A stretch of 64,000 nucleotides of DNA from Candidatus Leucobacter sulfamidivorax (GTDB lineage: Bacteria; Actinomycetota; Actinomycetes; Actinomycetales; Microbacteriaceae), in NCBI GenBank assembly GCA_016771945.1, contig QZLF01000002.1, positions 62,001 through 126,000 on the forward strand, read 5' to 3'. Numbering within the stretch: the first letter of the stretch is position 1; each line of letters begins with the position of its first letter. Below are positions 42,108-60,240 of the stretch, one piece after another. Position numbers and translations under genes: made by a program. The notes beneath the pieces were generated by a model. The model made no database searches, was not told the origin of the DNA, and saw only the letters and a list, made by a program, of their open reading frames with translations.

Positions 42108-42986
42108 ATGACCGCAATCGGCGCCGTCTCCGAGATCGGCTACGTCTCGATGCTGACCCGAGACCTCACCGCCTCGACCAAGAACGCCATCGACGTCTTC
42201 GGCCTGCACGAGACCGACTCGACGGGCAAGAAGGTCTTCCTCACCGCCCAGAACAAGCACCACGAGCTCGTCTACACCCAGGCCGAGGAGGACGCCGTCG
42301 ACCACATCGGCCTCGTCGTGCCCAGCAAGGACGAGCTCGACGCCGTCCGGGCCAAGGTCGACCGCGGAGGCTACAAGGTCGTCTCGGAGAACCCGATCGA
42401 GGATCACATCGAGGAGGGCTTCGCCTTCGTCGGCCCCGAGGGCTACACCTGGCAGATCTACACCGAGAAGCTGCCCTACAGCATGCTGAAGCGCGGCTCG
42501 CTGACCGCCGACCGCCTCGGCCACGTCAACATCCAGGCGATCGACTCGCACGCCCAGCGCGACTTCCTGCACGAGGTGTTCGACTTCGTCGTCTCCGACA
42601 ACATCGGCGACGAGCACTTCTTCATGCGCTGCAACAACGACCACCACGGCATCGCGGTGTTCAAGGCCCCGCGCACGGCGATGCACCACCACGCCTGGCA
42701 GGCCGGCAACATCATGGACCTCGCCCGCCTCGGCGACCGCCTGGCCCGTCGCGGCGCGCGCCTCGCCTGGGGCCCCGTGCGCCACGGCGCCGGCGACAAC
42801 ATCGCCGTGTACTACGTCGAGCCCAACGGCGCCGTGATCGAGTATTACTGCGACATGGAGACCATCCGCGACAAGAACCGCCCCGAGCGCTGGTTCGACG
42901 CCGACGACCTCTACTGGATCAACCAGTGGGACGGCCAGGTGCCCCCCGGCGTGCTCGACTACGGCGTGAAGCCCGTCGCGCGCTGA
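42108..42986 (+). CDS. VOC-family extradiol (catechol 2,3-type) dioxygenase
   Basis: This is a 292-residue type I extradiol dioxygenase with two VOC domains. Fe(II) ligands can be placed as His in LGHVNIQAID, His in the AMHHHAWQAG segment and Glu in GAVIEYYCDME, all in the C-terminal domain. The N-terminal domain begins ISEIGYVSMLTRDL-like and includes HHELVYTQAEEDAVDHIGLVV. It cleaves a catechol made by the monooxygenase/flavin reductase pair. AAAGGA precedes the ATG. BphC- and HsaC-type enzymes share this layout; substrate is open. Confidence 0.9.
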   Translation: MTAIGAVSEIGYVSMLTRDLTASTKNAIDVFGLHETDSTGKKVFLTAQNKHHELVYTQAEEDAVDHIGLVVPSKDELDAVRAKVDRGGYKVVSENPIEDHIEEGFAFVGPEGYTWQIYTEKLPYSMLKRGSLTADRLGHVNIQAIDSHAQRDFLHEVFDFVVSDNIGDEHFFMRCNNDHHGIAVFKAPRTAMHHHAWQAGNIMDLARLGDRLARRGARLAWGPVRHGAGDNIAVYYVEPNGAVIEYYCDMETIRDKNRPERWFDADDLYWINQWDGQVPPGVLDYGVKPVAR

Positions 42987-43011
42987 CCCGCGCTCGGCGA
43001 CACCGCAGAAC

Positions 43012-43040
43012 GGCCGCTCCGGGCATCGCCCGGGGCGGCC
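43012..43040. terminator. Bidirectional terminator between dioxygenase and GntR gene
   Basis: GGCCGCTCCGGGC (43012-43024), loop ATC, GCCCGGGGCGGCC (43028-43040): 13-bp stem with one wobble, placed exactly between two converging stop codons. Confidence 0.8.
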
Positions 43041-43047
43041 TTCGCAT

Positions 43048-43839
43048 TCACCAGCCGTGCAGCGTCTCGCCCTGCGAGGCCACGTAGTCGCGCATGACGC
43101 CGAAGGCGGCCTCCCGATCGCGGGCCTCGAGCGCGGCGATCATCCGCTCGTGCAGATCGAGCTGCAGGCGCAGTCCCTCCTGACCGTCGCGGCCGAGCGG
43201 CATGACGGCTACGGCGTGCTCGTCGAGGAACTCGATCAAGCCGACGAAGACGGTGCGCAGCAGCGCGTTGGGCGAGATGCTCGTCACGCGCGACTGGAAG
43301 TTCCAGTGCCCGCGGATGAAGCCGTCGACGTCGCCGCTCTCGGCTGCGCGCTGCATGCCCTCCAGAATGCCGCGCAGGTCATCGATGTCGAAGCGGCTCA
43401 CATGCTCCACCGCGTCCGAGAGCGCGAGCGGATCGAGGGCGTTGCGCATGCGCAGCGCATCGCGCAGCGTGTGCGTGCTCGTCTCCATCCCCACGATCTG
43501 CGCGCCGAGCCGCATGAGCGAGGTCGTATGGGCGCTGAAGATGCCGCCGCCGGGGCCGCGCCTGAGCGTCACCGCTCCGCGTGCCTGCGCGATCCGCAGC
43601 GCCTCGTTGAGGGTGCCCACCGAGACGCCCACGAGCTCGCGCAGCTCGTCCTTGCTGCCGAGCCTCGCGCCGGGCTCCTCCTCGCGGGCCATCGCCTCGA
43701 TCTGGGCGGCGACCTGCTCGGCCAGGCTCGTCTCCGGCGACACCTGGTACTGGCTCGCTTTGCGGTGCGAGAGCCAGGCTCGACGACTCAGGGCCGGCTC
43801 ATCCCCCGGGTCAAGCTCCACGGCGGAATTCCATACCAT
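43048..43839 (-). CDS. GntR-family (FCD/FadR-type) regulator
   Basis: This is a 263-residue regulator. The winged HTH at residues 40-105 reads SLAEQVAAQIEAMAREEEPGARLGSKDELRELVGVSVGTLNEALRIAQARGAVTLRRGPGGGIF. An FCD helical ligand domain follows, with metal-site residues in DALRMRNALDPLA, GHWNFQSRVTSISPNALL and LHERMIAALEARD. FCD regulators sense organic acids. TACTAT six bases before ATG suggests a leaderless start. It lies divergent from the monooxygenase and convergent with the dioxygenase, in the middle of the module it probably controls through CATATTGATCAT. Confidence 0.9.
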   Translation of the reverse strand: MVWNSAVELDPGDEPALSRRAWLSHRKASQYQVSPETSLAEQVAAQIEAMAREEEPGARLGSKDELRELVGVSVGTLNEALRIAQARGAVTLRRGPGGGIFSAHTTSLMRLGAQIVGMETSTHTLRDALRMRNALDPLALSDAVEHVSRFDIDDLRGILEGMQRAAESGDVDGFIRGHWNFQSRVTSISPNALLRTVFVGLIEFLDEHAVAVMPLGRDGQEGLRLQLDLHERMIAALEARDREAAFGVMRDYVASQGETLHGW

Positions 43840-43890
43840 GAATAGATAGTAGCAGCAGGCCTCCCGCAGGACTGTGCCGCCAGGACTCGC

Positions 43891-43925
43891 TTGACATTCC
43901 CCATCCTCAATGACATATTGATCAT
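43891..43925 (+). promoter_or_regulatory. Promoter with overlapping operator for the monooxygenase operon
   Basis: TTGACA (43891-43896), 17 bases, CATATT (43914-43919) make a near-consensus promoter. The -10 is the first half of CATATTGATCAT (43914-43925), the same 12-mer as at 41468. A repressor bound there would block the promoter. Confidence 0.75.
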
Positions 43926-43965
43926 GATCTTTATCGGCAACTCGAAGAGGAGAGGCACCCCCACC

Positions 43966-45156
43966 ATGACCCAGGTATCAGACGGCATCAAGAAGGTTCT
44001 CGAAGCGACCGAGGCGATCCTGCCCGAGATCGCGGCAGCGGGGAAGGACGGCGACCGGGATCGCCGCGTGCGCGACGACATCATCGAGAAGCTCAAGGAG
44101 ACCGGCGCACTCGGCATCAGCAAGCCCGAGCGCTTCGGCGGCCTCGGCGCGAACGCTCGCGAGATGCTCGAGGTGTCGACCCTCGTCGGCCGCGCCGACG
44201 CCGGCGCCGGCTGGGTCGTCATGCTCACCAACGTCTGCGGCTGGCTCACCGCGCACATGAACCACGAGGTGCAGGCCGAGGTCTGGGGCGGCGACAACCC
44301 CAACCCGGTGCTCACCGGCGTGCTCATGCCCACCTCGACCGCCGAGAAGGTGGAGGGCGGCTACCGCGTCAGCGGCAAGTGGCACTACAACTCGGGCTCG
44401 TGGTGGTCGGACTGGGCGGGCATCGGCTTCCCCGTGCCCGACGAGAACGGCGAGATCGTGAGCGTCGGCCTGGGCGTGATCCCCCGCTCCGACTACGAGA
44501 TCGAGGACACCTGGTACATCAGCGGCATGCGCGGGAGCGCGAGCAACTCCATCGTGGCCAACGACGTGTTCGTGCCCGACCACCGCGTCATGCTCGTGCC
44601 GCCCGCCATCGAGGGCGAGTACCCAAGCGTTTCCGCCAAGGACGAGCCCGTCTACCGCACCGCCTTCATCCCGCTGCTCGTCATCGTGCTCGTCGGCCCC
44701 TCGCTCGGCGCCGCGGAGGCCGCGCTCGAGTACGTGCGCGAGAAGGCGCAACAGAAGCCCGTCTCGCAGACCTTCTTCGAGAAGCAGGCCGACTCCACCG
44801 CGCTGCAGCTGAAGGTCGCGCAGGCCGCGCAGAAGATCGAGGTCGCGCGCCTGCTCACCTTCGACGTCTGCGACCGCCTCGACGCCTGGGGCCGCGAGGG
44901 CGTCTACCCCGAGCCGCTCGAGCGCACGCGCGTCAAGGCCAACACCGGCTACATCATGGAGTTGCTGCAGGAGGCCATCGAGACCCTCATGTGGGTGCAC
45001 GGCTCGGGCTCGTACGCCGACTCCAACCCGATGCAGCGCTGGTGGCGCGACATCCACGTCGGCACCAGCCACGCGGTCGGCAGCCCCTCCATCGGTTACG
45101 AGACCTACGGCAAGCTGCTGCTGGGCAATGAGACCAGCATCACCCCGATGATCTAG
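43966..45156 (+). CDS. Group D flavin-dependent monooxygenase (acyl-CoA dehydrogenase fold)
   Basis: This is a 396-residue protein of the HsaA/HpaH-C2-like family. The fold follows acyl-CoA dehydrogenases: N-terminal helices (KLKETGALGISKPERFGGLGA), middle beta domain (GYRVSGKWHYNSGSWWSDWAGIGFPV, WYISGMRGSASNSIVANDVFVPDHRV) and C-terminal helices (ETLMWVHGSGSYADSNPMQRWWRDIHVGTSHAV). It lacks the acyl-CoA dehydrogenase Glu context and has the monooxygenase-type NPMQRWWRDIH segment. It uses reduced flavin from the reductase at 41502 to hydroxylate a phenolic substrate. AGGAGAGG precedes the ATG. Confidence 0.88.
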   Translation: MTQVSDGIKKVLEATEAILPEIAAAGKDGDRDRRVRDDIIEKLKETGALGISKPERFGGLGANAREMLEVSTLVGRADAGAGWVVMLTNVCGWLTAHMNHEVQAEVWGGDNPNPVLTGVLMPTSTAEKVEGGYRVSGKWHYNSGSWWSDWAGIGFPVPDENGEIVSVGLGVIPRSDYEIEDTWYISGMRGSASNSIVANDVFVPDHRVMLVPPAIEGEYPSVSAKDEPVYRTAFIPLLVIVLVGPSLGAAEAALEYVREKAQQKPVSQTFFEKQADSTALQLKVAQAAQKIEVARLLTFDVCDRLDAWGREGVYPEPLERTRVKANTGYIMELLQEAIETLMWVHGSGSYADSNPMQRWWRDIHVGTSHAVGSPSIGYETYGKLLLGNETSITPMI

Positions 45157-45215
45157 AGGATATATACTTTTCCTCAAAGATATACACTTCCGGACCCCTA
45201 CCAGAAAGCAGCACG

Positions 45216-46055
45216 ATGCGCCTTGCGAACCACGACGGCCGAGCCGTCATCCTCACCGACGACACCACCGGCTTCGACGTCGCCACCGCCAGCGAGGGCC
45301 GCTTCGGTCCCGGCATCCAGGGCATCTACGACGACTGGGATGCGTTCACCGCCTGGGCCGCCGGCGCCTCCGGCGACTCGGTCTCCATCGAGGAGGCGAA
45401 GCTCGGCCCGCTCACCCCTCGGCCGTTCCAGTCCTTCGGCGTCGGCCTGAACTACGCCGATCACGTCGCGGAGAGCGGCATGGGCACGCCCGACGCCCTG
45501 CCGCCCGTCTTCCCCAAGTTCCAGTCGTCGATCGCCGGACCGTACGAGACTGTCGAGCTCGTTCCCGGCGGCAAGACCGACTGGGAGGCCGAGCTGGTGA
45601 TCGTCGTGGGCCGCAAGGCGCACAAGATCGCCGAGGGCACCGGCTGGGACTACGTGGCCGGCCTCACCGTCGGTCAGGATCTCTCCGAGCGCGTCACGCA
45701 GCTGCAGCCTCCGTCACCGCAGTTCGGCCTCGGCAAGTCGTTCCCCGGCTACTCGCCCCAGGGTCCGTGGCTGGTCACCCCCGATGAGCTGCCCAACCGC
45801 GACGACCTCGTGATCACGGGTGAGCTCGACGGCGAGGTCGTGCAGAGCGGCCACACCGGCCAGATGATCTTCGACGTGCCCTCGATCATCGAGAAGCTCT
45901 CGCAGATCGTCGTGCTGCAGCCGGGAGACGTGATCTACTCGGGCACCCCCTCGGGCGTCGGCTTCACCCGCGAGCCGGAGTGGCTGATCCAGCCGGGTCA
46001 GACCCTCACCACCACCATCGAGGGCATCGGCACCATCCGCCAGACCTTCGTCTGA
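45216..46055 (+). CDS. Fumarylacetoacetate hydrolase (FAH) family enzyme
   Basis: This is a 279-residue FAH-fold protein. Metal ligands sit in TDWEAELVIVVGRKA (ExE) and GLTVGQDLSER (Asp); other landmarks are FGVGLNYADHVAESG, FGLGKSFPGYSPQGPWLV, SIIEKLSQIVVLQPGDVIYSGTPSGVG. The family includes acylpyruvate hydrolases, 2-oxo-hept-diene-dioate isomerases/hydratases and oxalocrotonate decarboxylases that process extradiol ring-fission products. It follows the monooxygenase by 60 bases that include an AT-rich stretch and ends at a strong terminator. Confidence 0.9.
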   Translation: MRLANHDGRAVILTDDTTGFDVATASEGRFGPGIQGIYDDWDAFTAWAAGASGDSVSIEEAKLGPLTPRPFQSFGVGLNYADHVAESGMGTPDALPPVFPKFQSSIAGPYETVELVPGGKTDWEAELVIVVGRKAHKIAEGTGWDYVAGLTVGQDLSERVTQLQPPSPQFGLGKSFPGYSPQGPWLVTPDELPNRDDLVITGELDGEVVQSGHTGQMIFDVPSIIEKLSQIVVLQPGDVIYSGTPSGVGFTREPEWLIQPGQTLTTTIEGIGTIRQTFV

Positions 46056-49234: not shown

Positions 49235-50170
49235 CTATTGCCGGGGAGGGGGTGCCGCCGGCCCCCAGGGGATACCCGCCGCGAAGTCGAGCAGAGCCCG
49301 CACGCGCGGCAGCTCCGCGGCCCGGGCCGAGCAGATCGCATCGATGCCGACGGGCTCGACCGCGGGCTCGATCTCGACGGCGACCAGCGGATTCCCCTCC
49401 AGACTCGCCGTGTTCGCCGGACGGTGCACGAAGATGCCGTAGCCGAGCCCGCGGCCGACGAGCGTGCGCGCCGCCTCGAAGCTGCCGGTGCGATGGCGGA
49501 TTCGCGGTACGAGACCGCGCGCCGAGAACAGCGAGAGCATGTGGGTATCGGAAGGAGGGGTGTCGAAGAGGATGAGCTCCTCCTCGGTCAGCTGCTCGAG
49601 GGTCACGCTCGGCGCGGTCGCAAGCGGGTGATGCGCGGCGAAGAGGGCGTAGGCTCGGAGGGCGGCCAGCCGCCGCCGCACGGGCACTTCCGTCACGAGC
49701 GTCTCGAAGACGAAGGCGAGGTCGAGGGCGCCGGCGGCGACCTCGCGGCACAGCACGTCCTGGGAGGCCTCGATCACCCGCAGCTCGACCCGGGGATGCG
49801 CGCGGGAGAAGCCGTCGAGCAGGGGAGGCAACGCGCTCGGGGCGAGCGTCGGATAGCAGCCCACGGCGATCGGACCGACCAGTTCTCCCGGCTCCGATAC
49901 GAGCGAGAGCTGGAACTCCCGGGCCTGCTCGAGCAGGCGCTTCGCATCCTCGGCGGCGCGGGTGCCCGCGCTGGTCAGCGTGACCCCGTGCGCGCGTCGG
50001 CGGATGCAGAGCTGCGCCCCGAGCGCGGTCTCGAGGTCCGAGACCGAATCGGCGACAGCCGAGGGCGATACGAAGAGCTCCGCTGCCGCTGCGGCGAAGG
50101 AGCCGTGGTCGGCGACGGCGACGAAGTAGGCGAGCTGTCGCAGGGTGAGGTCGGGGACGGCGCCGGGCAT
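49235..50170 (-). CDS. LysR-family regulator next to the P450 fusion
   Basis: This is a 311-residue LysR protein. HTH: LRQLAYFVAVADHGSFAAAAAELFVSPSAVADSVSDLETALGAQLCIRRR. The effector domain includes VIEASQDVLCREVAAGALDLAFVFE, ILFDTPPSDTHMLSLF and GRGLGYGIFVHRP. It resembles the LysR protein at 10490. TAGGGT seven bases before ATG suggests a leaderless start. It is divergent from the P450 fusion gene and probably controls it. Its stop codon TAG lies inside the terminal motif of IS110 element 2, so the insertion may have set its C-terminus. Confidence 0.88.
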   Translation of the reverse strand: MPGAVPDLTLRQLAYFVAVADHGSFAAAAAELFVSPSAVADSVSDLETALGAQLCIRRRAHGVTLTSAGTRAAEDAKRLLEQAREFQLSLVSEPGELVGPIAVGCYPTLAPSALPPLLDGFSRAHPRVELRVIEASQDVLCREVAAGALDLAFVFETLVTEVPVRRRLAALRAYALFAAHHPLATAPSVTLEQLTEEELILFDTPPSDTHMLSLFSARGLVPRIRHRTGSFEAARTLVGRGLGYGIFVHRPANTASLEGNPLVAVEIEPAVEPVGIDAICSARAAELPRVRALLDFAAGIPWGPAAPPPRQ

Positions 50171-50184
50171 GATCCGGACCCTAT

Positions 50185-50201
50185 CACCGATTTTTCCGGT
50201 G
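50185..50201. promoter_or_regulatory. LysR-type binding site candidate
   Basis: CACCGATTTTTCCGGTG is an AT-centred inverted repeat (arms CACCG/CGGTG) in the 132-base gap between divergent LysR and P450 fusion genes, close to the LysR start, as expected for an autoregulatory LysR site. Confidence 0.5.
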
Positions 50202-50302
50202 TTAAAGAAAGATTATTCGAGATTTTTTCGCGGAGACTCCGGGGAGATACTGGGTTCAGCCGGGCGACGACGCCCGCAGCGAGCACAGTGAGGAAGCCGG
50301 CG

Positions 50303-53300
50303 ATGAACTCGATTCCAGCCCCCGTGGCCGACTGGGTGACGATCCCCGCGCTCTACCGCGACCCCTTCCCCATCTACGAGCGCCTGCGCGCCGAGGGCGG
50401 CGTGCACTGGGTGCCGGCGGTGGGTCGATACCTCATCACCTCGTACGAGGCGGTGCACGCGACCGAGCTCGACCAGGAGGTCTTCTCGGCGAACGAGGAG
50501 GGCTCGCTCATGCTGCGCAGCATGGGCCACTCGATGCTGCGTCGCGACGATCCCGAGCACTACATCGAGCGCAAAGCCTGGCAGCCCTCCCTGCAGCCGG
50601 GGGTCGTGAAGCGGGTGTGGACCGAGATCTTCGACCGCGCCGCCGACCGCTACCTCGGCGAGCTCGCCGAGAAGGGGCCGGGCGCCGACCTCGTGCGCGA
50701 CTTCGCCGGCCCCTACGCCGGCGAGTGCCTGCGCGAGCTGCTCGGCTTCCACAACGTCACCCAGCAGGACATGCAGCGCTGGTCGCAGACCCTCATCGAC
50801 GCCACCGGCAACTACGCCGACGATCCCGACGTGTGGGCGGCGGGCGAGCGCTCCTTCGAGGAGGTCGACGACGCCCTCGACGAGATGCTCGCCTGGCACG
50901 CCGCGCACCTCGAGGACAACCCCACGCTCATTGCGCACCTGCTGGTGCTGCCGGGCGAGAAGATGCCGCTCGACCGCATCCGCGCGAATATGAAGATGAC
51001 GATCGGCGGCGGGCTCAACGAGCCGCGCGACGCCATCGCGGTGGGGGCCTGGGCGCTGCTGCTGCATCCCGAGCAGCGCGCCGCGATCGCGGCGGATCCC
51101 TCGCTCTGGTCCGCCGCCTTCGAGGAGACCATCCGCTGGGTCGCCCCCATCGGCATGTACTCGCGGCAGGTCACCCGCGACACCGTGCTCGCCGGGGTCG
51201 AGTTGCCGGCGAAGGCGCGGCTCGGCATCTGCGTGCTGTCGGCGAACCGCGACGAGAAGGTGTGGGATGCGCCCGAGCGCTTCGACATCCACCGCGAGGT
51301 GAAGCCGCACCTGGCCTTCGGCAAGGGCACGCATGTCTGCCTCGGCACCTGGGTCGCGCGGGCCGAGGTGGCCGAGATCGCGCTGCCGGCGCTCTTCTCC
51401 CGCTTCGAGGGGCTCGCGCTCGTGCCCGATCGGCCGGCGGAGGCCGGCGGGTGGGTGTTCCGCGGCATGACGCGGCTGCCGGTGCAGTGGGACGCGGTAC
51501 GCGGGGGCGGATCGGCGCTCGCCGCGGGCGGTGCTGCTGTTGCGGGCCTTGCTCCCGCGCCCGGATCCCGGCCGGCTCCCCGCATCGCCGTCGTGGGCTC
51601 GGGCCCCTCGGGCGCGTTCACGGCGCAGGCGCTGCGCCGCCGCATCCCCGATTGCCGCGTCGACGTGTTCGAGGCGCTGCCCGTGCCCTTCGGGCTCGTG
51701 CGCTACGGCGTCGCGGCGGATCACCAGGGCACGAAGGCCGTCGCCCGCCAGTTCGAGCGGCTCTTCGCCGACGAGGCGGTGCGTTTCATCGGGAACACGC
51801 GGGTGGTCGCCGAGGAGCCCGGCGTCGACACGGCCGGTGCGGGCGGTACCGGTGCGGCCGATGCCGATGCCGATGCCGATGCCGGCGCCGGCGCCGGCGC
51901 GCCCGGTGCCGAGGTGCCCCTCGACGAGCTGCGCTCGAACTACGACTCGGTGGTGCTCGCCACGGGCCTCCACGCCGACGCGCCGCTCGCGATCCCGGGC
52001 GCGGAGCTGCCCGGCGTGCACGGCGCGGGCTCCGTCACGCGGTGGCTCAACGGGCATCCCGACGCCGCCGAGGTGCCCGCGCTCGGCGAGACGGTCGCCG
52101 TGATCGGACACGGCAACGTCGCGCTCGACGTGGCGCGCCTCATCGCCCGCGACGACTTCGAGGGCAGCGACATCGACGACGCCGAGCGGCAGGCGCTCGC
52201 GGGCTCGGTGCGCACGATCCACCTGATCGGCCGCAGCGTCCCGACGAGCGCGAAGTTCGACCCGGTCATGGTGCGCGAGCTCGCGGGCCTGCCCGGCGTC
52301 GGCCATGCCGTGCACGGGGTCGACTTCGACGCGCTGCCGGGGGAGGGCAAGGACGCGCGCGCCGACGCGGTGCGGCTGCTGGCCGGCTCCGATACCGTTC
52401 GCGGCGCGGGCGACGCCGAGCGGGTGCGCATCGAGTGGTGGTTCGGCGCCGTGCCGCTCGCGATCGAGGGGGCGGATCGCGCAGCCGCCCTGCGGCTGCG
52501 CACCCCCGAGGGTGAGACCTCGCTCGATGTCGACGACGTCATCACCGCGATCGGCTTCCGCGCGGACGCGGCCCGGGCGATGCCGGTGGAGCCGGGGCAG
52601 ACCGCCTCGGGCCGCATCGAGCCGGGCCTCTACGTCGCCGGGTGGTTGCGCCGTGGACCGCGGGGCACGATCCCCGACCAGCGCGAGGACGCGAGGCAGC
52701 TCGCCCGCCTCATCGCCGAGGACATCGATACTGCAGCGAGTTCGTCGGTCGCGGAGGCGGATCCGTCGGCCGAGCCCGTCGAGACCAGGATCCGCGTCGC
52801 CCGCTCGCGGGATCTCGCCGCGACCGGCGTCGAGCGCTCGGCCGCCTCGGTCGACTTCGCGGGCTGGCGCCGCATCGACCTGCACGAGCGCGCCGCCGCC
52901 GCACCGGGCCGCGTGCGGGCGAAGCTGCGCTCCTGGGCTGCGCTGCTCGCGATCGCAGGGGCGCCTGGCACACCGCTGCCCGAGGGGCTCGATCCCGTCG
53001 GGTCAGCGCATGACGAGGCGCTTCCGGTGCCGCTGACGATCGCCTACGCGACCGAGTCGGGCGGCGCGCAGTTCGCGGCCGAGGAACTGCGCGCGGCGCT
53101 CGCGGGATCCGGCACCGACGCCAGCGGAGCCGCCGCAGACATCGCGCTGCTCGACCTCGCCGAGATCACGCCCGCCGGGTTCGATCCCGAGCGCTTCCAC
53201 GTCATCCTCTGCTCGACCTACGGCGACGGCGAGCTGCCCACTGCGGTGCGCGGCCTCGTCGCGGACCTCGCGGCCGAGCGCCCCGAACTCGACCGCCTCG

Positions 53301-53515
53301 CCTACGCGGTCTTCGGCCTCGGCGATCGCAGCTACGAGAAGACCTACTCGCGCGGCAGCGAGCTCTTCGACGAGGCGCTCGCCGCATGCGGTGCGCGCAG
53401 GGTGGGAGAGTATGGGCGCCACGACGCGGGCGGCGGCACCGACGCGGCCGAGGCCGCCGCCGAGTGGTTCGAGGGGGTGCGGGAGGAGATCCGCGCGCTC
53501 GTCGCCCTCGCCTGA
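50303..53515 (+). CDS. Self-sufficient cytochrome P450: P450-FprA reductase-flavodoxin fusion
   Basis: A single 1070-residue chain contains three redox modules. Residues 1-400 are a cytochrome P450: ExxR in FEETIRW (275-278) and heme ligand Cys346 in AFGKGTHVCLGTW; the I-helix reads IGGGLNEPRDA (234-244) without the usual acid-Thr pair. Residues about 427-910 are an adrenodoxin-reductase/FprA-type FAD/NADPH reductase: RIAVVGSGPSGAFTAQAL, FGLVRYGVAADHQGTKAV, VAVIGHGNVALDVARLI, PTSAKFDPVMVREL, GWLRRGPRGTIPDQREDA. Residues about 935-1070 are a flavodoxin: IAYATESGGAQFAAEEL, CSTYGDGELP, VFGLGDRSYEK. Electrons would flow NADPH-FAD-FMN-heme. A DADADADAGAGAGA microsatellite lies in the reductase. 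AGGAAG precedes the ATG. Probable substrate: an aromatic. Confidence 0.93.
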   Translation: MNSIPAPVADWVTIPALYRDPFPIYERLRAEGGVHWVPAVGRYLITSYEAVHATELDQEVFSANEEGSLMLRSMGHSMLRRDDPEHYIERKAWQPSLQPGVVKRVWTEIFDRAADRYLGELAEKGPGADLVRDFAGPYAGECLRELLGFHNVTQQDMQRWSQTLIDATGNYADDPDVWAAGERSFEEVDDALDEMLAWHAAHLEDNPTLIAHLLVLPGEKMPLDRIRANMKMTIGGGLNEPRDAIAVGAWALLLHPEQRAAIAADPSLWSAAFEETIRWVAPIGMYSRQVTRDTVLAGVELPAKARLGICVLSANRDEKVWDAPERFDIHREVKPHLAFGKGTHVCLGTWVARAEVAEIALPALFSRFEGLALVPDRPAEAGGWVFRGMTRLPVQWDAVRGGGSALAAGGAAVAGLAPAPGSRPAPRIAVVGSGPSGAFTAQALRRRIPDCRVDVFEALPVPFGLVRYGVAADHQGTKAVARQFERLFADEAVRFIGNTRVVAEEPGVDTAGAGGTGAADADADADAGAGAGAPGAEVPLDELRSNYDSVVLATGLHADAPLAIPGAELPGVHGAGSVTRWLNGHPDAAEVPALGETVAVIGHGNVALDVARLIARDDFEGSDIDDAERQALAGSVRTIHLIGRSVPTSAKFDPVMVRELAGLPGVGHAVHGVDFDALPGEGKDARADAVRLLAGSDTVRGAGDAERVRIEWWFGAVPLAIEGADRAAALRLRTPEGETSLDVDDVITAIGFRADAARAMPVEPGQTASGRIEPGLYVAGWLRRGPRGTIPDQREDARQLARLIAEDIDTAASSSVAEADPSAEPVETRIRVARSRDLAATGVERSAASVDFAGWRRIDLHERAAAAPGRVRAKLRSWAALLAIAGAPGTPLPEGLDPVGSAHDEALPVPLTIAYATESGGAQFAAEELRAALAGSGTDASGAAADIALLDLAEITPAGFDPERFHVILCSTYGDGELPTAVRGLVADLAAERPELDRLAYAVFGLGDRSYEKTYSRGSELFDEALAACGARRVGEYGRHDAGGGTDAAEAAAEWFEGVREEIRALVALA
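51859..51901. repeat. Hexanucleotide microsatellite inside the P450 fusion
   Basis: Tandem GATGCC units followed by GCCGGC-type units encode the run DADADADAGAGAGA in the reductase module. Slippage in multiples of six would keep the frame. Confidence 0.7.
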
Positions 53516-53753: not shown

Positions 53754-54848
53754 TCACCAGCGCGTGATGACGGTGCGGGCGATCTGCCCGGTCTTCATCA
53801 GCTCATAGGCGTCGTTGATCTCCTCGACTGGGATCTCGCGCGAGATCAGGTCGTCGAGGTTGAGGCGGCCCTGCAGGTAGAGCTCGGCGTAGACGGGGAT
53901 GTCGCGCTTGATGTTCGCGGATCCCATGAACACGCCCTTCACCGTGCGCTGCGGGGTGATGACGTCGTCCATCATCGCGATCTCCATGCGGCTGCCGGGA
54001 GGCTGCAGCCCGATGAGCAGCACCTGGCCGCCGATGCGGGTCATGCGCAGCGCCTGCGTCGTGGTGGCCGGGAGCCCGATCGCCTCGAAGGCGTGGTCGG
54101 CCCCGCCGCCCGTGATCTCCTGCACCGCCGCGACCGGGTCGCCCGCGCCGCCGTTCACGACGTGGGTCGCGCCGAAGCGGCGGGCGAGCTCGAGCTTCTC
54201 ATCGGAGAGGTCGACCGCGATGATCTTCTCGGCTCCGGCGAGCGCAGCGCCGCTGATGATGTTCAGGCCGATGCCGCCGACGCCGATGACGACTGCGGTG
54301 TCGCCCGGCCTCACGCGGGCGGCGTTGATCGCGGCGCCGGCGCCGGTGATGGTGGCGCAGCCCAGCACGGACGCCTGGGGGAAGGGGATGCCGTCGGGCA
54401 GCGCGACGAGCTGGTTCTCGTGCACGAGCGCCCGTTCCGCGAAGGCCGCGGTGCCGAACACCGGGAACACCGCCTCGCCGACGGCATCCGTGAGGCGCGG
54501 CGGCTGATCCGGCCCGCGCATCAGCTCCGCGCCGGAGCGGCAGCGGTAGGTCTCGCCCGAGAGGCAGGCATCGCAGCGGGAGCAGAACTGCACGAGCGAG
54601 CCCGCGACGCGGTCGCCGGGCGCGAAGCCCTGCACCTCGGGGCCCACCGCGAGCACCACGCCCGCGAGCTCGTGCCCGAGCACCGCGGGCAGGGGCACCC
54701 CGAAGTCGATCGTCGCGAAGTGCAGGTCGGAGTGGCAGAGTCCCGAGGCGCGCACCTCGACGAGCACCTCGCGGCCGATCGGTTCGGCGATGCTCAGGTC
54801 CTCGACGAGGAACCCCTCGCCCAGGCCGCGGATGACCGCTGCTCTCAT
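53754..54848 (-). CDS. Zinc-dependent alcohol dehydrogenase
   Basis: This is a 364-residue medium-chain dehydrogenase. Catalytic zinc ligands lie in SGLCHSDLHF and LGHELAGVV, structural zinc in FCSRCDACLSGETYRC, and the NAD loop is VIGVGGIGLNIISGAALAGAEKIIAVDLS (Asp favours NAD). Class III/aryl-alcohol-type enzymes share this pattern. The ATG at 54848 with GGAG before it is preferred to 54860. It is the last gene of the CoA cluster, 181 bases after the ligase, and could oxidise an aryl alcohol or a formaldehyde adduct released by demethylation. Confidence 0.88.
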   Translation of the reverse strand: MRAAVIRGLGEGFLVEDLSIAEPIGREVLVEVRASGLCHSDLHFATIDFGVPLPAVLGHELAGVVLAVGPEVQGFAPGDRVAGSLVQFCSRCDACLSGETYRCRSGAELMRGPDQPPRLTDAVGEAVFPVFGTAAFAERALVHENQLVALPDGIPFPQASVLGCATITGAGAAINAARVRPGDTAVVIGVGGIGLNIISGAALAGAEKIIAVDLSDEKLELARRFGATHVVNGGAGDPVAAVQEITGGGADHAFEAIGLPATTTQALRMTRIGGQVLLIGLQPPGSRMEIAMMDDVITPQRTVKGVFMGSANIKRDIPVYAELYLQGRLNLDDLISREIPVEEINDAYELMKTGQIARTVITRW

Positions 54849-55029
54849 GATCCACTCCATCTCTCGGTGTTTCGTCTATCGGACCTTCACGGTGCCGTCT
54901 GCACTGCGGTCTCGGTGCCACCGTAGTCCGGGCCGCCGATGCCGGGTACGACTCCGCGGAAGTCCTCGTGCGAAATCCCTGCATGAAGCGGCGGTGCGAC
55001 CGGCTCGCCACGGCGCGGCTCGGGGGCGC

Positions 55030-56581
55030 TCAGCCCCCGAAGCGGGCCCGCAGATCCGCCTTCCGGATCTTGCCCGACGCCGTGCGCGGGAACTCGTCGA
55101 TCACGACGACGTTCCTCGGCAGCTTGTACCTCGCGAGCCGGCCGTCGAGCGCCGCGCGCACGGCCTCGGTCGACACCGAGGCGGGAGAGACCCTCGCGCA
55201 GCGTCAGCACGGCCCACGGCACCTCGCCCCACTGCTCGTCGGGCACGCCGATCACCGCGGCGCCCGTGACGCCCTCGATGCTGTAAAGCAGGTCCTCGAT
55301 CTCGGCGGGGTAGATGTTCTCGCCGCCCGAGATGATCATGTCCTTCAGACGATCGGAGATGAAGAGGTAGCCGTCCTCGTCGAGGTAGCCGAGGTCCCCC
55401 GAGCGCAGCCAGCCGTCCGCGGTGAAGGCCGCGGCGGTCGCCTCGGGCAGGCCGTGGTAGCCGAGGAACACGTTCGGCCCCCGCAGCTCGATCTCGCCCA
55501 CGGTGCCGCGCGGCGCGATGCCGCCCGCGCCGTCGGAGATGCGCACGTCGCTGAAGAAGTGCGGCAGCCCGACGCTGCCCCGCTTCTCGCGGGTCATCGC
55601 GGGCGAGAGGCTCGTCGCCCCCGGCGAGGTCTCGGTCATGCCGTAGCCCTGGGAGAACGAGAGCCCGCGCGCCTCGTACGTGTCGAGGATGCGCGTGGGC
55701 ACCGCGGATCCTCCGCAGGTGAGCTTGCTCAGGCTCGAGATGTCGGTGCCCGCCCAGGCGGGGTGATCCGCCAGCAGCTGATAGGTCGTGGGCACGCCGC
55801 TGAGCTGCGTCACCCGGTGGCGCTCGATCAGCTCGAGCGCCCGTCCGGCCTCGAAGCCCCGCTCGAGCACGGTGGTGCCGCCCTTCACGATCGTCGGCAG
55901 CACGCCCATGCCGAGCGCCGCGGCGTGGAAGAGCGGCGAGATCATGAGCGCGATGTCGCTCGACACGATGTCGTAGTCGACGATCGTGTTGACCGACACC
56001 CAGGTCAGGTTGCCGTGGCTGAGCACCGCGCCCTTCGCCTTGCCCGTCGTGCCCGAGGTGTACATGATCACCGCCGGGTCGTCGAGCGAGACCGCGACGT
56101 CGCTGTGCCCGTGCGGGCCGGCCGCCGCGACCAGGGCGTCGAGGCCCGGCGTCGTGGCGGATCCCGCGCCCGTCGCGATGACGTGGGCGATGCCGAGCCG
56201 GGCTGCGATCGGCGCGACGACCTCCGCGAACTCCGGACCGTGGATCAGCACCCGCACGCCCGCGTCGCCCAGCACGTGCTCGATCTCGGGCGGCGCCAGC
56301 CGGGTGTTGACCGGCACGAAGACCGCGCCCAGCTGCGCCGCCCCGAACAGCGTCACGATGAACTCCGGGCAGTTCTCCCCGATGAACCCGACGGCGTCGC
56401 CCTTGCCCGCCCCGCGATGGTGCAGCAGCGCCGAGAGCGCGTCGGCGCGGTCGGCGAGCTCGCGATAGGTGATGCGCTCGCCGACGGCGTCGCCATCACC
56501 CGACGCAGTGATCAGCGCGACCTTGTCGGGGCTCTTCAGGCGGCGGTGGGGCAGCCACGCGCCGAGTCCGCGGTTGAGCAT
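55030..56581 (-). pseudogene. AMP-forming acyl-CoA ligase, one frameshift near the C-terminus
   Basis: The main frame from 56581 (MLNRGLGAWLPHRRLKSPDKVALI) has A3 MYTSGTTGKAKGAVLSHGNL, A5 QGYGMTETSPG, and A7/A8 GWLRSGDLGYLDEDGYLFISDRLKDMIISGGENIYPAEIE. Near 55180-55190 the frame shifts by one base; the continuation SVSTEAVRAALDGRLARYKLPRNVVVIDEFPRTASGKIRKADLRARFGG contains the A10 Lys and ends at 55030. Length 1552 is one more than a multiple of three. It should activate an aromatic or fatty carboxylate to its CoA ester for the following acyl-CoA dehydrogenase and hydratase. Only the last 50 residues are affected. Confidence 0.82.
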
Positions 56582-56628
56582 GGAGTCTCCTCTTCGAGAA
56601 CGATGCCGTGGAGATGGGGCGGATCGGC

Positions 56629-57090
56629 CTACGCGTAGAAGCGGTACAGGCTGCGGGCCACGAGCGCGGGTCGCTCGCCGCCCTCGATCTCGAAGGTCTG
56701 GTCGACCGTGAACTGGTAGCCGCCCTTGACCTCCTCGACCTCGGCGATGACGGCGCCCATTCGCACGCGGGCGCCGACCTTCACGGGCGAGACGAAGCGC
56801 ACCTTGTCGAGGCCGTAGTTGACCTTCGTGGTGACGCCCTCGAGGTCGAAGAGCTCGCTCCAGAAGTAGGTGGCGAGCGACAGCGAGAGGAAGCCGTGGG
56901 CGATCGGGCCGCCGAAGGGGCTCTCCTTCACGGCGCGCTCGGGATCGACGTGGATCCACTGGTGGTCGTCGACGGCGTCGGCGAACAGGTTCACGCGGTC
57001 CTGGGAGATCTCGAGCCAGTCGGTGAACCCGAGATCCCTGCCCGCGAGGCTGGGGGCGTCGGTGTAGGCGGCGATGAACTGCTGGGTCAT
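56629..57090 (-). CDS. MaoC-family enoyl-CoA hydratase
   Basis: This is a 153-residue hot-dog-fold hydratase. The hydratase-2 motif FADAVDDHQWIHVDPERA supplies the catalytic Asp and His (about residues 42 and 47), followed by the substrate segment GGPIAHGFLSLSL. It would add water across the double bond of an alpha,beta-unsaturated (for example cinnamoyl-type) CoA ester. It lies between the dehydrogenase and the ligase in the minus-strand operon, with gaps of 30 and 47 bases. Confidence 0.9.
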   Translation of the reverse strand: MTQQFIAAYTDAPSLAGRDLGFTDWLEISQDRVNLFADAVDDHQWIHVDPERAVKESPFGGPIAHGFLSLSLATYFWSELFDLEGVTTKVNYGLDKVRFVSPVKVGARVRMGAVIAEVEEVKGGYQFTVDQTFEIEGGERPALVARSLYRFYA

Positions 57091-57120
57091 GGTGGGGCTC
57101 CTTGGTGGTGGGGTCTGGTC

Positions 57121-58341
57121 TTAGACGAAGGCGGAGGCGCCGGTCAGTGCCCGCCCGACGATGAGGGAGGTGATCTCGTGCGTGCCCTCGTACGAGTAGA
57201 CGGCCTCGGCGTCGGCGAAGAACCGCGCGACGTCGGTGTCGAGCACGATGCCGTTGCCGCCGGCGACCTCGCGGGCGAGTGCGACGGTCTCGCGGGCGCG
57301 CAGCGCGACCCACATCTTGGCGAGCGAGGAGTTCGCGTCGCTGAAGACGCCGCGATCCTGCAGCTCGGAGATCTGGATCACCATGCCGAGCGAGGCCACT
57401 ACGTTGCCGGCCATGCGCGCGAGCTTCTCCTGCACCAGCTGGAAGCCCGCGAGCGGACGCCCGAACTGCTCGCGCTCGCGCACGTACCGGATCGCGGCCT
57501 CGAGCGCTCCCGCCTGCAGACCCGCGGCGATCCAGGCCACGTCGGCGCGCAGGGTGCCCATGATCGCGGCGACGTCGCGCCACGAGTTCACGCGCGCGAG
57601 CCGCGCGCTCTCGGGCACGCGCACGCCGGTCAGAGTGAAGTCGGCGTTCTGCATGGGCCGCAGCGACACCTTGCCGGTGATCGTCTCGATCTTCACGCCC
57701 TCGGCCTCGCGCGGCACGAGGAAGCACTTGACCTCGCCGTCGGCCGTGTCGCGGGCGAACACGGCGAGCACGTCGGCGCCGACGGCGCCGCCGATCCAGC
57801 GCTTGTGCCCGTCGATGACCCACTCGGCGTCGTCACCGTCGCCCGTGCGCGTCGCGGTGGTGGCGAGCCCGCCCGCGATGTCGCTGCCGTGATCGGGTTC
57901 GGTGAGCGCGAAGACGCCGGTCAGACCGAAGTCGCGGATCAGCGGATCGAGCTCGGCCACCTGCTCGGGCGAGCCGCCCTGGCGCACCGTCGTCCGGAAG
58001 AGCCCCGCCTGCGCGTTGTACACGGTCGCGACCGAGACGTCGGTGCGGGCGAGCACGTAGGTGCGCAGGCCCTTGAAGAGCGAGGAGTCAGCCTCCTCGC
58101 GGCTGACGCCCTCGGGGTCCATCAGGCCGAGCGGCGCGAGCGCGCCGATCACGCCCTCGGGCATGGTCGCCGTGTCCCAGGCCTCGTTCACGAGCGGCTT
58201 CACCCGCTCGTCGAGGGTCCGCTGCAGACCGGTCAGCGCGGCGACGGCGGCGTCGCTCAGCCGCCCCTCGCAGAAGCGGAACGGGTCGATGCCGAAGGGA
58301 TCCTCGGCCGCGATCTCCGGATCGCGGATCGCGGCGCTCAC
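57121..58341 (-). CDS. Acyl-CoA dehydrogenase (glutaryl-CoA dehydrogenase-like)
   Basis: This is a 406-residue flavoprotein. FAD/substrate strands include VFALTEPDHGSDIAGGLATTATRTGD, WVIDGHKRWIGGA and VSLRPMQNADFTLTGVRVPES. The C-terminal catalytic segment YSYEGTHEITSLIVGRALTG carries the Glu base in the YEGTHE position as in glutaryl-CoA-type enzymes. GTG at 58341 overlaps the amidohydrolase stop (GTGA). It would introduce a double bond into an acyl-CoA such as a dihydrocinnamoyl-CoA, making substrate for MaoC. Confidence 0.9.
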   Translation of the reverse strand: MSAAIRDPEIAAEDPFGIDPFRFCEGRLSDAAVAALTGLQRTLDERVKPLVNEAWDTATMPEGVIGALAPLGLMDPEGVSREEADSSLFKGLRTYVLARTDVSVATVYNAQAGLFRTTVRQGGSPEQVAELDPLIRDFGLTGVFALTEPDHGSDIAGGLATTATRTGDGDDAEWVIDGHKRWIGGAVGADVLAVFARDTADGEVKCFLVPREAEGVKIETITGKVSLRPMQNADFTLTGVRVPESARLARVNSWRDVAAIMGTLRADVAWIAAGLQAGALEAAIRYVREREQFGRPLAGFQLVQEKLARMAGNVVASLGMVIQISELQDRGVFSDANSSLAKMWVALRARETVALAREVAGGNGIVLDTDVARFFADAEAVYSYEGTHEITSLIVGRALTGASAFV

Positions 58342-59267
58342 GCGCGGGCCCCCGCTTCGGAGTCGCCGGCATCGGAGTCGTCGGCACCCAAGCCGAGCAG
58401 ACGGATCGCGTTGCCCTTCAGGATCCCGGGCAGCGCCTCGGGCTTCAGCTTCGTCTCCTCGATGTCGCGCAGCCAGCGGTCGGGGGTGAGCAGCGGGAAG
58501 TCGGTGCCGAAGAGCACGCGGTCCTTCAGGATCGAGCCGGCGTAGCGCACGAGCTCGGCCGGGAAGTACTTCGGACTCCAGCCCGACAGGTCGATCCAGG
58601 TGTTGTGCTTGTGCGTGGCCACCGAGAGCGCCTCCTCCTGCCACGGCACAGAGGGGTGGGCCATCACGATCTGCAGTTCGGGGAACTCGGCGGCGACCTC
58701 GTCCAGCAGCATCGGGTTCGAGTAGCGCAGGCGCAGACCGCGCCCGCCCGGCATGCCCGCGCCGATCCCGGTCTGGCCCGTGTGGAACAGCGAGACCACG
58801 CCCGCCTCCTCCAGCACCCCGTAGAGCGGGAAGTAGGCGGGATCGCTCGGGTCGAAGCCCTGCACCGTGGGCTGGAACTTGAATCCGCGCACGCCGTGGT
58901 CCTCGATCAGGCGCCGGGCCTGATCCACCGCCGCCGCGCCGCGCAGCGGATCGACCGAGGCGAAGGGGATCAGCACGTCGTTGTTGCGCGCCGCGCCCTC
59001 GGCGATGTCGACGCTCGAGATGGGTTCGTGGCCGAGGTTCGTCGTGGCGTCGACCGTGAACACCACGGCGGCCATGCTCCGCTCGCGGTAGTAGTCGGCG
59101 ACCGCGTCGAGCTCGGGGCGGATGCCGCCGTTCTTGAAGTAGGCGCTCGCCGCCTCGGCGAGGTCGTCGGGCAGAGAGTTGTGCCCGTGATCGTCGCCCT
59201 CGATGTGCACGTGCACGTCGATCGCGGTGATCGCGTCGAGGTCGATCGCGGGTTCGTAGCGGGTCAT
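58338..59267 (-). CDS. Amidohydrolase-2 family enzyme, CouO-like
   Basis: This is a 309-residue TIM-barrel metal hydrolase: IDVHVHIEGDD (HxH metal pair), GVRGFKFQPTVQGFDPSDPAYFPLYGVLEEAG, SLFHTGQTGIG (His), IVMAHPSVPWQEEAL (His) and VLFGTDFPLLTPDRWL (Asp). This ACMSD-like family includes decarboxylases and the 4-hydroxyphenyl-beta-ketoacyl-CoA hydrolase of Rhodococcus p-coumarate catabolism. With an SDR, hydratase and ligase in the same operon, hydrolytic cleavage of a beta-ketoacyl-CoA is the best guess. It is translationally coupled to the next gene. Confidence 0.85.
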   Translation of the reverse strand: MTRYEPAIDLDAITAIDVHVHIEGDDHGHNSLPDDLAEAASAYFKNGGIRPELDAVADYYRERSMAAVVFTVDATTNLGHEPISSVDIAEGAARNNDVLIPFASVDPLRGAAAVDQARRLIEDHGVRGFKFQPTVQGFDPSDPAYFPLYGVLEEAGVVSLFHTGQTGIGAGMPGGRGLRLRYSNPMLLDEVAAEFPELQIVMAHPSVPWQEEALSVATHKHNTWIDLSGWSPKYFPAELVRYAGSILKDRVLFGTDFPLLTPDRWLRDIEETKLKPEALPGILKGNAIRLLGLGADDSDAGDSEAGARA

Positions 59268-59310
59268 CGGTGCTCCTCGGGCCTCGGAGAGTGCGGAGTG
59301 GTGGGGTGGA

Positions 59311-60240
59311 TCAGCCCTGCGCAGCCGGCTGCAGCTCCTCGGGCAGCGGCGGGAACTTCTCGCCGACCGACTGCTGGTGCGCGCCGATCGTCTCGGGGAA
59401 CTCGGTCTCGAGCGTCTCAGCGTCCCAGCCGCCGTCGTGGAAGGCGGTGACGACCGGCTCGGGGTGCGACCACAGCTGCAGGCGGTCGCCGCCGACCCCG
59501 ATCGCCTGGCCGGTGACGCCCGCCGCGGCGTCGGAGGCGAGGTAGGCGATGAGCGGGGCGACGTCGGCGGAGTTGCCGAAGCCGATCTCCTTGCGGAAGA
59601 AGTCGGGCATGGGCTCGCCCTTCAGATCCGCCTCGACGGCGGCGTGGAAGTAGGGCACGGTCGCGGTCATCGCGGTGGCGGCGACGGGGATCACGGCGTT
59701 GGCGGTGATCCCGGCCTTCTTCAGCTCCTGCGCCCAGGTGCGCACCATGCCGACGATGCCGGCCTTCGCCGCGGCGTAGTTGGTCTGGCCGAAGGTGCCG
59801 CGCTGGCCGGTGGGGGAGCCGATGCAGATGATGCGCCCCGCGATCTCGTTCTCGCGCATGTAGACCGCGGCCTCGCGCACGCAGGTGAAGGTGCCGCGCA
59901 GGTGCACGTTGATCACCGTGTCGAAGTCGTCGTCGCTCATCTTCCAAAGCACCGTGTCGCGCAGCACGCCCGCGTTCGTGACGAGGATGTCGAGGCGGCC
60001 GTAGGTGTCGACCGCGTGCGCGACGAGCCGCTGCGCGGTCTCGGTGGGGCCGACGGGCGCGACCACGGCGCTCGCGGTGCCCCCGGCGGCCTCGATGCTC
60101 GCGACGGCCGCGGTCGCGGTCGCCTCGTCGACGTCGTTCACGACGACCGAGGCGCCCTGCCGGGCGAGCTCCTGGGCGTAGGCGAGGCCGAGCCCGCGGC
60201 CCGATCCGGTGACGATGGCGACCTTGCCGGTGAGCGACAT
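59311..60240 (-). CDS. Short-chain dehydrogenase (3-hydroxyacyl-CoA dehydrogenase-like)
   Basis: This is a 309-residue SDR. The NAD loop is VAIVTGSGRGLGLAYA, the NAG motif is ILVTNAGVLRD, and the catalytic Ser-Tyr-Lys set is in IGSPTGQRGTFGQTNYAAAKAG. The C-terminal extension of about 60 residues resembles the multifunctional hydroxyacyl-CoA dehydrogenase type. The start MSLTGKVAIVTG at 60240 follows GAAGGAG. First gene of the six-gene operon, it would oxidise the 3-hydroxyacyl-CoA made by MaoC. Confidence 0.88.
   Translation of the reverse strand: MSLTGKVAIVTGSGRGLGLAYAQELARQGASVVVNDVDEATATAAVASIEAAGGTASAVVAPVGPTETAQRLVAHAVDTYGRLDILVTNAGVLRDTVLWKMSDDDFDTVINVHLRGTFTCVREAAVYMRENEIAGRIICIGSPTGQRGTFGQTNYAAAKAGIVGMVRTWAQELKKAGITANAVIPVAATAMTATVPYFHAAVEADLKGEPMPDFFRKEIGFGNSADVAPLIAYLASDAAAGVTGQAIGVGGDRLQLWSHPEPVVTAFHDGGWDAETLETEFPETIGAHQQSVGEKFPPLPEELQPAAQG

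Follow-up and report, generated by a model that had tools for sequence, protein, structure and literature searches.

A cytochrome P450–FprA-type reductase–flavodoxin fusion of Candidatus Leucobacter sulfamidivorax belongs to a conserved family of predicted self-sufficient enzymes

In a 64,000-nucleotide stretch of Candidatus Leucobacter sulfamidivorax DNA (contig QZLF01000002.1; hereafter the window), a single gene on the plus strand (50303–53515) encodes a cytochrome P450, an FprA-type reductase and a flavodoxin, in that order. Judged from its sequence, this fusion is a real and conserved new variant of self-sufficient P450, in which the parts of a class III system are found on one chain. The gene translates as 1070 codons in one unbroken frame with a single terminal stop, and all motifs quoted in an earlier note, which had proposed this architecture from the DNA alone, are present within the 1070-aa translation. 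The proposal agreed with translation, Pfam, phmmer and Foldseek (the last run on an AlphaFold2 model), and we regard it as nearly certain that three intact modules are joined here. The mechanically defined open reading frame begins at 49238, but this extension runs antisense through a LysR gene. An ADW motif follows eight residues after the ATG at 50303, and in relatives start codons precede it by 6–33 residues, which is weak evidence given that those starts were picked by a script near the expected place.

Along the protein, Pfam detects in turn PF00067 (P450), PF07992 (Pyr_redox_2) and PF00258 (flavodoxin), all three scores exceeding the gathering thresholds. Membership of a P450 family by name requires at least about 40% identity with an already named protein, and the heme module (residues 1–400; 50303–51502, plus strand, as for all features of the gene) is 57.4% identical across 394 aa to PDB entry 6g71, entitled 'Structure of CYP1232A24 from Arthrobacter sp.' in the Foldseek output, which places it in the CYP1232 family. 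In phmmer searches of solved proteins, 6g71 was the best match for the first 400 residues (residues 4–399, 520 bits). The middle module (residues 426–885; 51578–52957), which would bind flavin adenine dinucleotide (FAD) and NAD(P), matched FprA (1lqt, 148 bits) and adrenodoxin reductase (1cjc), and its GxGPxG and GxGNVA motifs and fold are those of the FprA/adrenodoxin reductase type. The C-terminal module (residues 913–1070; 53039–53512), a flavodoxin expected to carry flavin mononucleotide (FMN), scored 60 bits with PF00258; among solved chains its nearest relative is cindoxin (4oxx), which for the last 165 residues ranks above the flavodoxin domains of sulfite reductase, P450 BM3 and cytochrome P450 reductase (CPR).

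The fusion is a family of at least 61 loci and not a one-off. A single scan of species genomes returned 79 loci, in 61 of which a single open frame encodes the three modules; the remaining 18 comprise two cut at contig ends (L071 and L088), three with the modules in two frames (L082, L087 and L092) and 13 unfused P450s. The record titles of the 61 fusion loci name 20 genera of Actinomycetota and Gammaproteobacteria, and two further rows carry only higher names. Eight of the 61 are gammaproteobacterial (Halomonas, Kushneria, Larsenimonas and Terasakiispira), Halomonas and Kushneria being taken by us as members of that class. A second sample, 398 genomes of the window's own family, gave fusion-type matches in 20 genomes, in one of which (G332, locus L023) the flavodoxin is in another frame. 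The two sets share species (the genome of locus L060 and genome G033 have HpaD at the same place), so their counts are kept apart. No fusion was seen in a plasmid collection, where 482 records matched but in no case did a single place span 80% of the query.

Conservation was assessed in an alignment of 47 sequences, namely 46 of the 61 one-frame loci and the window. Cys346, the heme thiolate ligand (51338–51340), is present in all 47; little or no variation is likewise seen at Glu275 and Arg278, in the glycine motifs for FAD and NAD(P), or at the key residues of the flavodoxin loops, with GxGPxG and GxGNVA of the reductase found in 47/47 sequences and conserved FMN loops around residues 917–921, 970–977 and 1005–1011. 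The I-helix motif GGGLNEPRD (residues 235–243; 51005–51031) varies only at Leu238 (46/47), and has a proline where P450s usually have threonine. The linkers differ in length from sequence to sequence. Linker 1 (residues 401–425; 51503–51577) is rich in Ala, Gly and Pro, and the stretch 396–426 ranges from 12 to 74 residues; linker 2 (residues 886–912; 52958–53038) lies in a stretch, 885–913, that ranges from 24 to 47.

The AlphaFold2 model, built from the same 47 proteins, has a pLDDT (predicted local distance difference test) of 84.2 and a pTM (predicted template modelling score) of 0.66, and its first Foldseek matches are 6g71, FprA and adrenodoxin reductase. Segments with pLDDT below 50 are residues 339–345 (in the heme-ligand loop), 406–421 (in linker 1) and 507–532. 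The last of these belongs to the reductase module and is a low-complexity insert of the form (AD)n(AG)n (51821–51898), at whose site 36 of the 47 sequences have no insert, nine have a different 30-residue stretch and one has a 9-residue stretch. At the DNA level the insert is encoded by perfect GCCGAT and GCCGGC hexamer repeats (51857–51900), not found in the other 46 aligned sequences.

The closest relatives of the individual modules come from systems with separate components. CYP1232A24 (Arthrobacter sp., PDB 6g71; Klenk et al. 2019) shares the I-helix GGGLNEPRD in addition to the 57% heme-module identity, but it was solved as a 405-residue chain, whereas the fusion chain includes flavodoxin and reductase. 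The class III system of P450cin (CYP176A1), cindoxin and cindoxin reductase resembles the fusion, by sequence only, in that an FAD reductase and an FMN flavodoxin serve the P450; there, however, the three are separate polypeptides, as against one frame here. The reductase module is 39% and 33% identical to the products of the genes beside XplA (Rhodococcus DN22) and an XplA-like gene (R. erythropolis R138), respectively; the corresponding values for the flavodoxin module are 32% and 37%. In XplA (class VI) the flavodoxin is in front of the P450 and the reductase is separate; in the fusion the flavodoxin comes last and the reductase is part of the chain. An XplA-like heme module was rejected: only 152 residues align at 32% with XplA of DN22, and identity to the XplA-like protein is 24% over 376 residues. 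The suggestion in the earlier note that the protein unites the roles of XplA and XplB is therefore apt for its redox half, which is of the XplB/XplA-flavodoxin/cindoxin kind, and fails in substrate terms, since the heme module is CYP1232-like.

CYP102 proteins (class VIII) consist of a P450 followed by CPR with its FMN domain and an FNR-type FAD domain. Both the domain order and the reductase type of the fusion differ from this arrangement (Pfam, Foldseek), and a class VII (CYP116B) partner was likewise discarded, the Pfam scan having yielded neither an Fe-S nor a phthalate-oxygenase-reductase domain. The fusion shares with both classes a P450 placed first and all partners on one chain, but their partners are of the phthalate-oxygenase-reductase type with a 2Fe-2S domain (class VII) or the CPR type (class VIII) (PMC11889516, PMC11173547). 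Excerpts of a 2024 review describe ten classes of P450 redox partners, including separate flavodoxin (III), P450–flavodoxin (VI), VII and VIII, and P450–FprA–flavodoxin is not among the classes in those excerpts (PMC11173547). Three ways of linking flavodoxin to P450 are set out in the available part of another source, which gives CYP116B3 as the fused three-domain example (PMC9405906), and a 2025 paper, in its accessible portion, assigns bacterial self-sufficient P450s mainly to classes VII and VIII (PMC11889516). The earlier note did not know of the arrangement as described, and no description of it was found in the openly accessible literature, part of which was covered and which leaves aside most subscription journals.

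Phylogenetic trees of the modules were built from 62 sequences, the 61 one-frame loci and the window; the two loci cut at contig ends, the three with modules in two frames and the 13 standalone P450 loci were excluded. In the P450 tree a single clade unites all 62 fusion sequences (local support 0.927), and 6g71 is its sister (0.949). The fusion flavodoxins also form one clade (0.796), as do the fusion reductases (0.977), although L134, a reductase encoded separately, falls within the latter clade. Between modules, the pairwise distances are correlated (r = 0.88, 0.76 and 0.85), with none of 500 label shuffles reaching values as high; these shuffles ignore relatedness. One P450 clade and co-varying modules fit a single old fusion that was later passed on.

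The unfused relatives of the P450 point to its former partners. Class I relatives (L093, L095–L106, L121 and L122) have P450s 46–62% identical to that of the fusion, but downstream of them a 2Fe-2S ferredoxin and an FAD reductase are each encoded by a gene of their own; such genes lie directly downstream in 13/13 standalone P450 loci versus 0/61 fusions. Separate FprA-like and flavodoxin genes adjoin each other in Nitratireductor and Pseudosulfitobacter, in six genomes of the family sample and, together with an XplA-like P450, in Enterobacter. On a Rhodococcus pyridinivorans plasmid, three neighbouring genes for a P450, an FprA-like reductase and a flavodoxin follow one another as the modules of the fusion do, but this P450 is only 24% identical to the fusion heme module. 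These arrangements suggest that a P450 once served by ferredoxin acquired a flavodoxin-type cassette. Judging from the trees, the most likely course is a single origin of the architecture, in which an FprA-like/flavodoxin pair became fused to a CYP1232-type P450 formerly dependent on a separate 2Fe-2S ferredoxin, with later movement of the fusion between Actinomycetota and Gammaproteobacteria. An intermediate, a CYP1232-type P450 with both partners as separate neighbours, was not seen among the loci examined. An Arthrobacter CYP1232A24/1232F1 cluster is described, in the part of the source available, as having two P450s, a flavodoxin and a flavodoxin reductase (PMC9687028).

Related gene sets were also seen in other loci. 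In L116 (5989–7703) and L117 (5992–7673), paired FprA-like reductase and flavodoxin genes adjoin genes for aldehyde dehydrogenase and aspartate dehydrogenase, and no P450 is annotated in the stretch. L065 (8811–13948) and L129 (5419–12470) have a second P450 of the same family (44–46% identity) near the fusion; that of L065 (46%) comes with its own separate flavodoxin and that of L129 lies near a 2Fe-2S ferredoxin and a reductase.

Self-sufficient electron transfer is very probable from the make-up of the chain. NAD(P)H would reduce the FAD of the FprA-like module, single electrons would pass from FAD to the FMN of the C-terminal flavodoxin, and the flavodoxin, on its tether of about 24–47 residues, would shuttle them to the N-terminal CYP1232-type module, whose heme would activate O2. 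The order FAD to FMN to heme is proposed by homology to the P450cin chain, in which electrons run from NADPH through the FAD of cindoxin reductase and the FMN of cindoxin to the P450, according to the accessible portion of the source (PMC9687028). The enzyme would then oxidize a substituted phenylacetate, by O-demethylation of a methoxy group (e.g. of homovanillate) or by ring hydroxylation, and the product, 3,4-dihydroxyphenylacetate (homoprotocatechuate), would enter the Hpa meta-cleavage pathway under divergent LysR control. A natural self-sufficient P450 monooxygenase that feeds the homoprotocatechuate route is, on this analysis, the probable overall explanation, and its bacterial hosts would probably use it in degrading aromatic acids of plant type.

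The choice of nicotinamide cofactor is a separate matter. FprA has GRR in the alignment, and we assume that its paired arginines bind the 2′-phosphate position of NADPH; at this place all 47 fusions have Arg-Ser instead (Arg644-Ser645 in the window; 52232–52237), so NADPH preference is not taken as given. Arg-Ser is also found in five of six separate flavodoxin-linked reductases, including one beside XplA in strain DN22, the sixth having Arg-Gly, and the separate FprA homologue in the window's own genome has Arg-Arg. Arg-Ser thus looks like a mark of the flavodoxin-linked reductase type.

The proposed substrate rests on the activity of CYP1232A24, on fold neighbours and on Hpa genes. CYP1232A24 reportedly demethylates methoxyphenylacetates. 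The title of the paper on it, as cited in the accessible part of PMC9687028, links the enzyme to papaverine. By fold, the nearest P450s are CYP1232A24 and then GcoA, with SyoA and CYP199A lower in the Foldseek list; we take CYP1232A24, GcoA and SyoA to be aromatic O-demethylases, and CYP199A is one according to the available part of a published account (PMC11530827). HpaD is encoded in 20/20 fusion genomes of the family sample compared with 143/398 overall (Fisher test, 5e-10, uncorrected for kinship). In the species-genome set, HpaD was sought in 42 of the 79 genomes, chosen for genus spread (32 of the 61 fusions and 10 of the 13 standalone P450s), and was found with 31 of the 32 fusion loci, the exception being Terasakiispira. 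Neighbours were counted by tblastn, with 48 of the 61 fusion loci having at least 9 kb of flank on both sides; within 10 kb, or up to the end of the available flank, HpaD lies near the fusion in 19 loci, HpaE in 21, HpaI in 19 and HpaH in 20. Of one representative each, HpaD and HpaE scored above the NCBIfam cut-offs, and HpaH and HpaI below theirs. Genome G223 has the order HpaI, HpaH, HpaD, HpaE, GntR, HpaG-like, transporter, HtaA, LysR, fusion. In the window's own genome, HpaD (78% identity) and relatives of HpaE, HpaI, HpaH, HpaG-like and GntR are located ~630 kb away on the same contig. With these data, we put a role in the phenylacetate/homoprotocatechuate route at slightly better than even.

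Several observations weigh against this role. HpaD is also present in 10/10 standalone-P450 genomes checked, and 123 family-sample genomes have it without the fusion; related genomes do not count independently, and in the window's genus all ten sampled have HpaD and seven the fusion. No HpaD was found within 10 kb in 42/61 fusion loci, and HpaD lies within 11 kb of the fusion in only six of the 20 family-sample fusion genomes. No Hpa genes adjoin the window fusion, which of the neighbours seen in G223 has LysR only and is accompanied instead by a coenzyme A (CoA) ligase, MaoC, acyl-CoA dehydrogenase and alcohol dehydrogenase set. The fold list includes P450s of quite different substrates (CYP125, CYP109 and CYP142), and the model, with its pTM of 0.66, leaves the geometry between modules unfixed.

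It is accordingly possible, if not what we expect, that the enzyme is self-sufficient but its substrate does not belong to the homoprotocatechuate route; it might be, for instance, a phenylpropanoid or alkaloid fragment that the products of the adjoining genes process. Similarity in sequence among P450s does not guarantee a shared substrate, and this reading would account for the many fusion loci with no HpaD nearby as well as for the cluster downstream of the window fusion, on the opposite strand (53754–60240), that encodes a Zn-dependent alcohol dehydrogenase, CoA ligase, MaoC, acyl-CoA dehydrogenase, amidohydrolase and SDR. Neighbour clustering with a codon-usage gene caller, however, found relatives of this CoA ligase near the fusion in only L040, L053, L079, L090 and L091, or 6/79 loci counting the window, so the CoA-ligase set is not a family trait, whereas Hpa genes are repeatedly found next to the fusion, and in two phyla.

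Within the phenylacetate/homoprotocatechuate role, O-demethylation is the probable reaction. The enzyme might instead be a ring hydroxylase of hydroxyphenylacetates that makes homoprotocatechuate directly, which we consider rather unlikely. The Hpa genes beside the fusion would suit such a hydroxylase, as would two mostly negative searches: 29 of the 32 other fusion genomes searched gave no match to HpaB (PF03241), and no HPAH-type oxygenase exceeded the cut-off in 33 genomes, this cut-off being a strict one with which none of 14 controls was positive. But only 25 of the 123 fusion-free genomes with HpaD encode HpaB, and 11 of the 20 family-sample fusion genomes have it, so its absence elsewhere says little, and the idea that the fusion P450 stands in for the HpaB hydroxylase was dropped as unsupported. 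Furthermore, we take the closest solved P450s to be aromatic O-demethylases.

A different possibility concerns the redox half, which might chiefly supply electrons in trans to other P450s, the fused P450 being only one of its clients. The second P450 of L065, where no second FprA-like gene was found, the second P450 of L129 and the two-P450 Arthrobacter cluster all speak for it. We nevertheless think it improbable: a second P450 frame of at least 90 bits was found in only one (L065) of the 61 fusion loci, the second P450 of L129 lies near a separate ferredoxin and reductase, and the module trees closely agree, as expected of one working unit. A chance open frame or an assembly artefact joining three genes is effectively excluded, even though the split frames of L082, L087, L092 and L023 show that breaks occur, because 61 other loci are likewise in one open frame, linker length varies while the domains are conserved, and the cofactor motifs have few or no exceptions among the 47 sequences.

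Among the neighbouring genes, a LysR-type regulator (PF03466/PF00126; 49235–50170, minus strand) is encoded divergently from the window fusion and is 58% identical to one query of the LysR neighbour cluster. A divergent LysR gene lies within 1.5 kb of the fusion in 48/61 loci and is shared by all 13 standalone P450 loci (L093 and L095–L106); it is likely the regulator of the fusion. The 132-bp region between the two genes (50171–50302) is, by its position, the presumed operator/promoter, and the promoter and terminator scan gave no result, with no sigma-70-like match found in it. An MFS transporter gene is found within 6 kb of the fusion in 28/61 loci. A small HtaA-domain protein is encoded up to 2.2 kb upstream in 36/61 fusion loci (13 on the same and 23 on the opposite strand), as exemplified by the PF04213 domain of the protein encoded in L068 (9521–9976), and none was found beside the 13 standalone P450s. 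The HtaA family is presumably heme-binding, and as a guess this neighbour may be a heme helper.

Beyond the LysR gene, the window contains two IS110-family transposase genes (PF01548, PF02371; 46380–47477 and 48152–49219), located between a FAH-family gene and LysR, so the fusion sits beside mobile DNA. Further away (42108–46055) is a small aromatic-type set comprising a VOC dioxygenase-like protein, a GntR/FCD regulator, an HsaA/HPAH-like flavin monooxygenase, which scores below the cut-offs, and the FAH-family hydrolase.

Self-sufficient P450s are favoured in biocatalysis and few natural designs are in use. The fusion adds a design with a different reductase type and a flavodoxin, available from dozens of genomes and with a heme module near a solved aromatic P450. 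The relatives that keep a separate ferredoxin system make it a natural before-and-after case of how a P450 comes to switch redox partner and be fused. More tentatively, the family might form a distinct, widespread self-sufficient class that converts methoxylated or hydroxylated phenylacetates into homoprotocatechuate, with a redox half that also serves a second P450 in trans and, in many hosts, an HtaA-domain heme-loading helper of its own. If the proposed role is true, its members would be single-gene candidates for oxidizing methoxylated aromatic acids, such as those derived from lignin.

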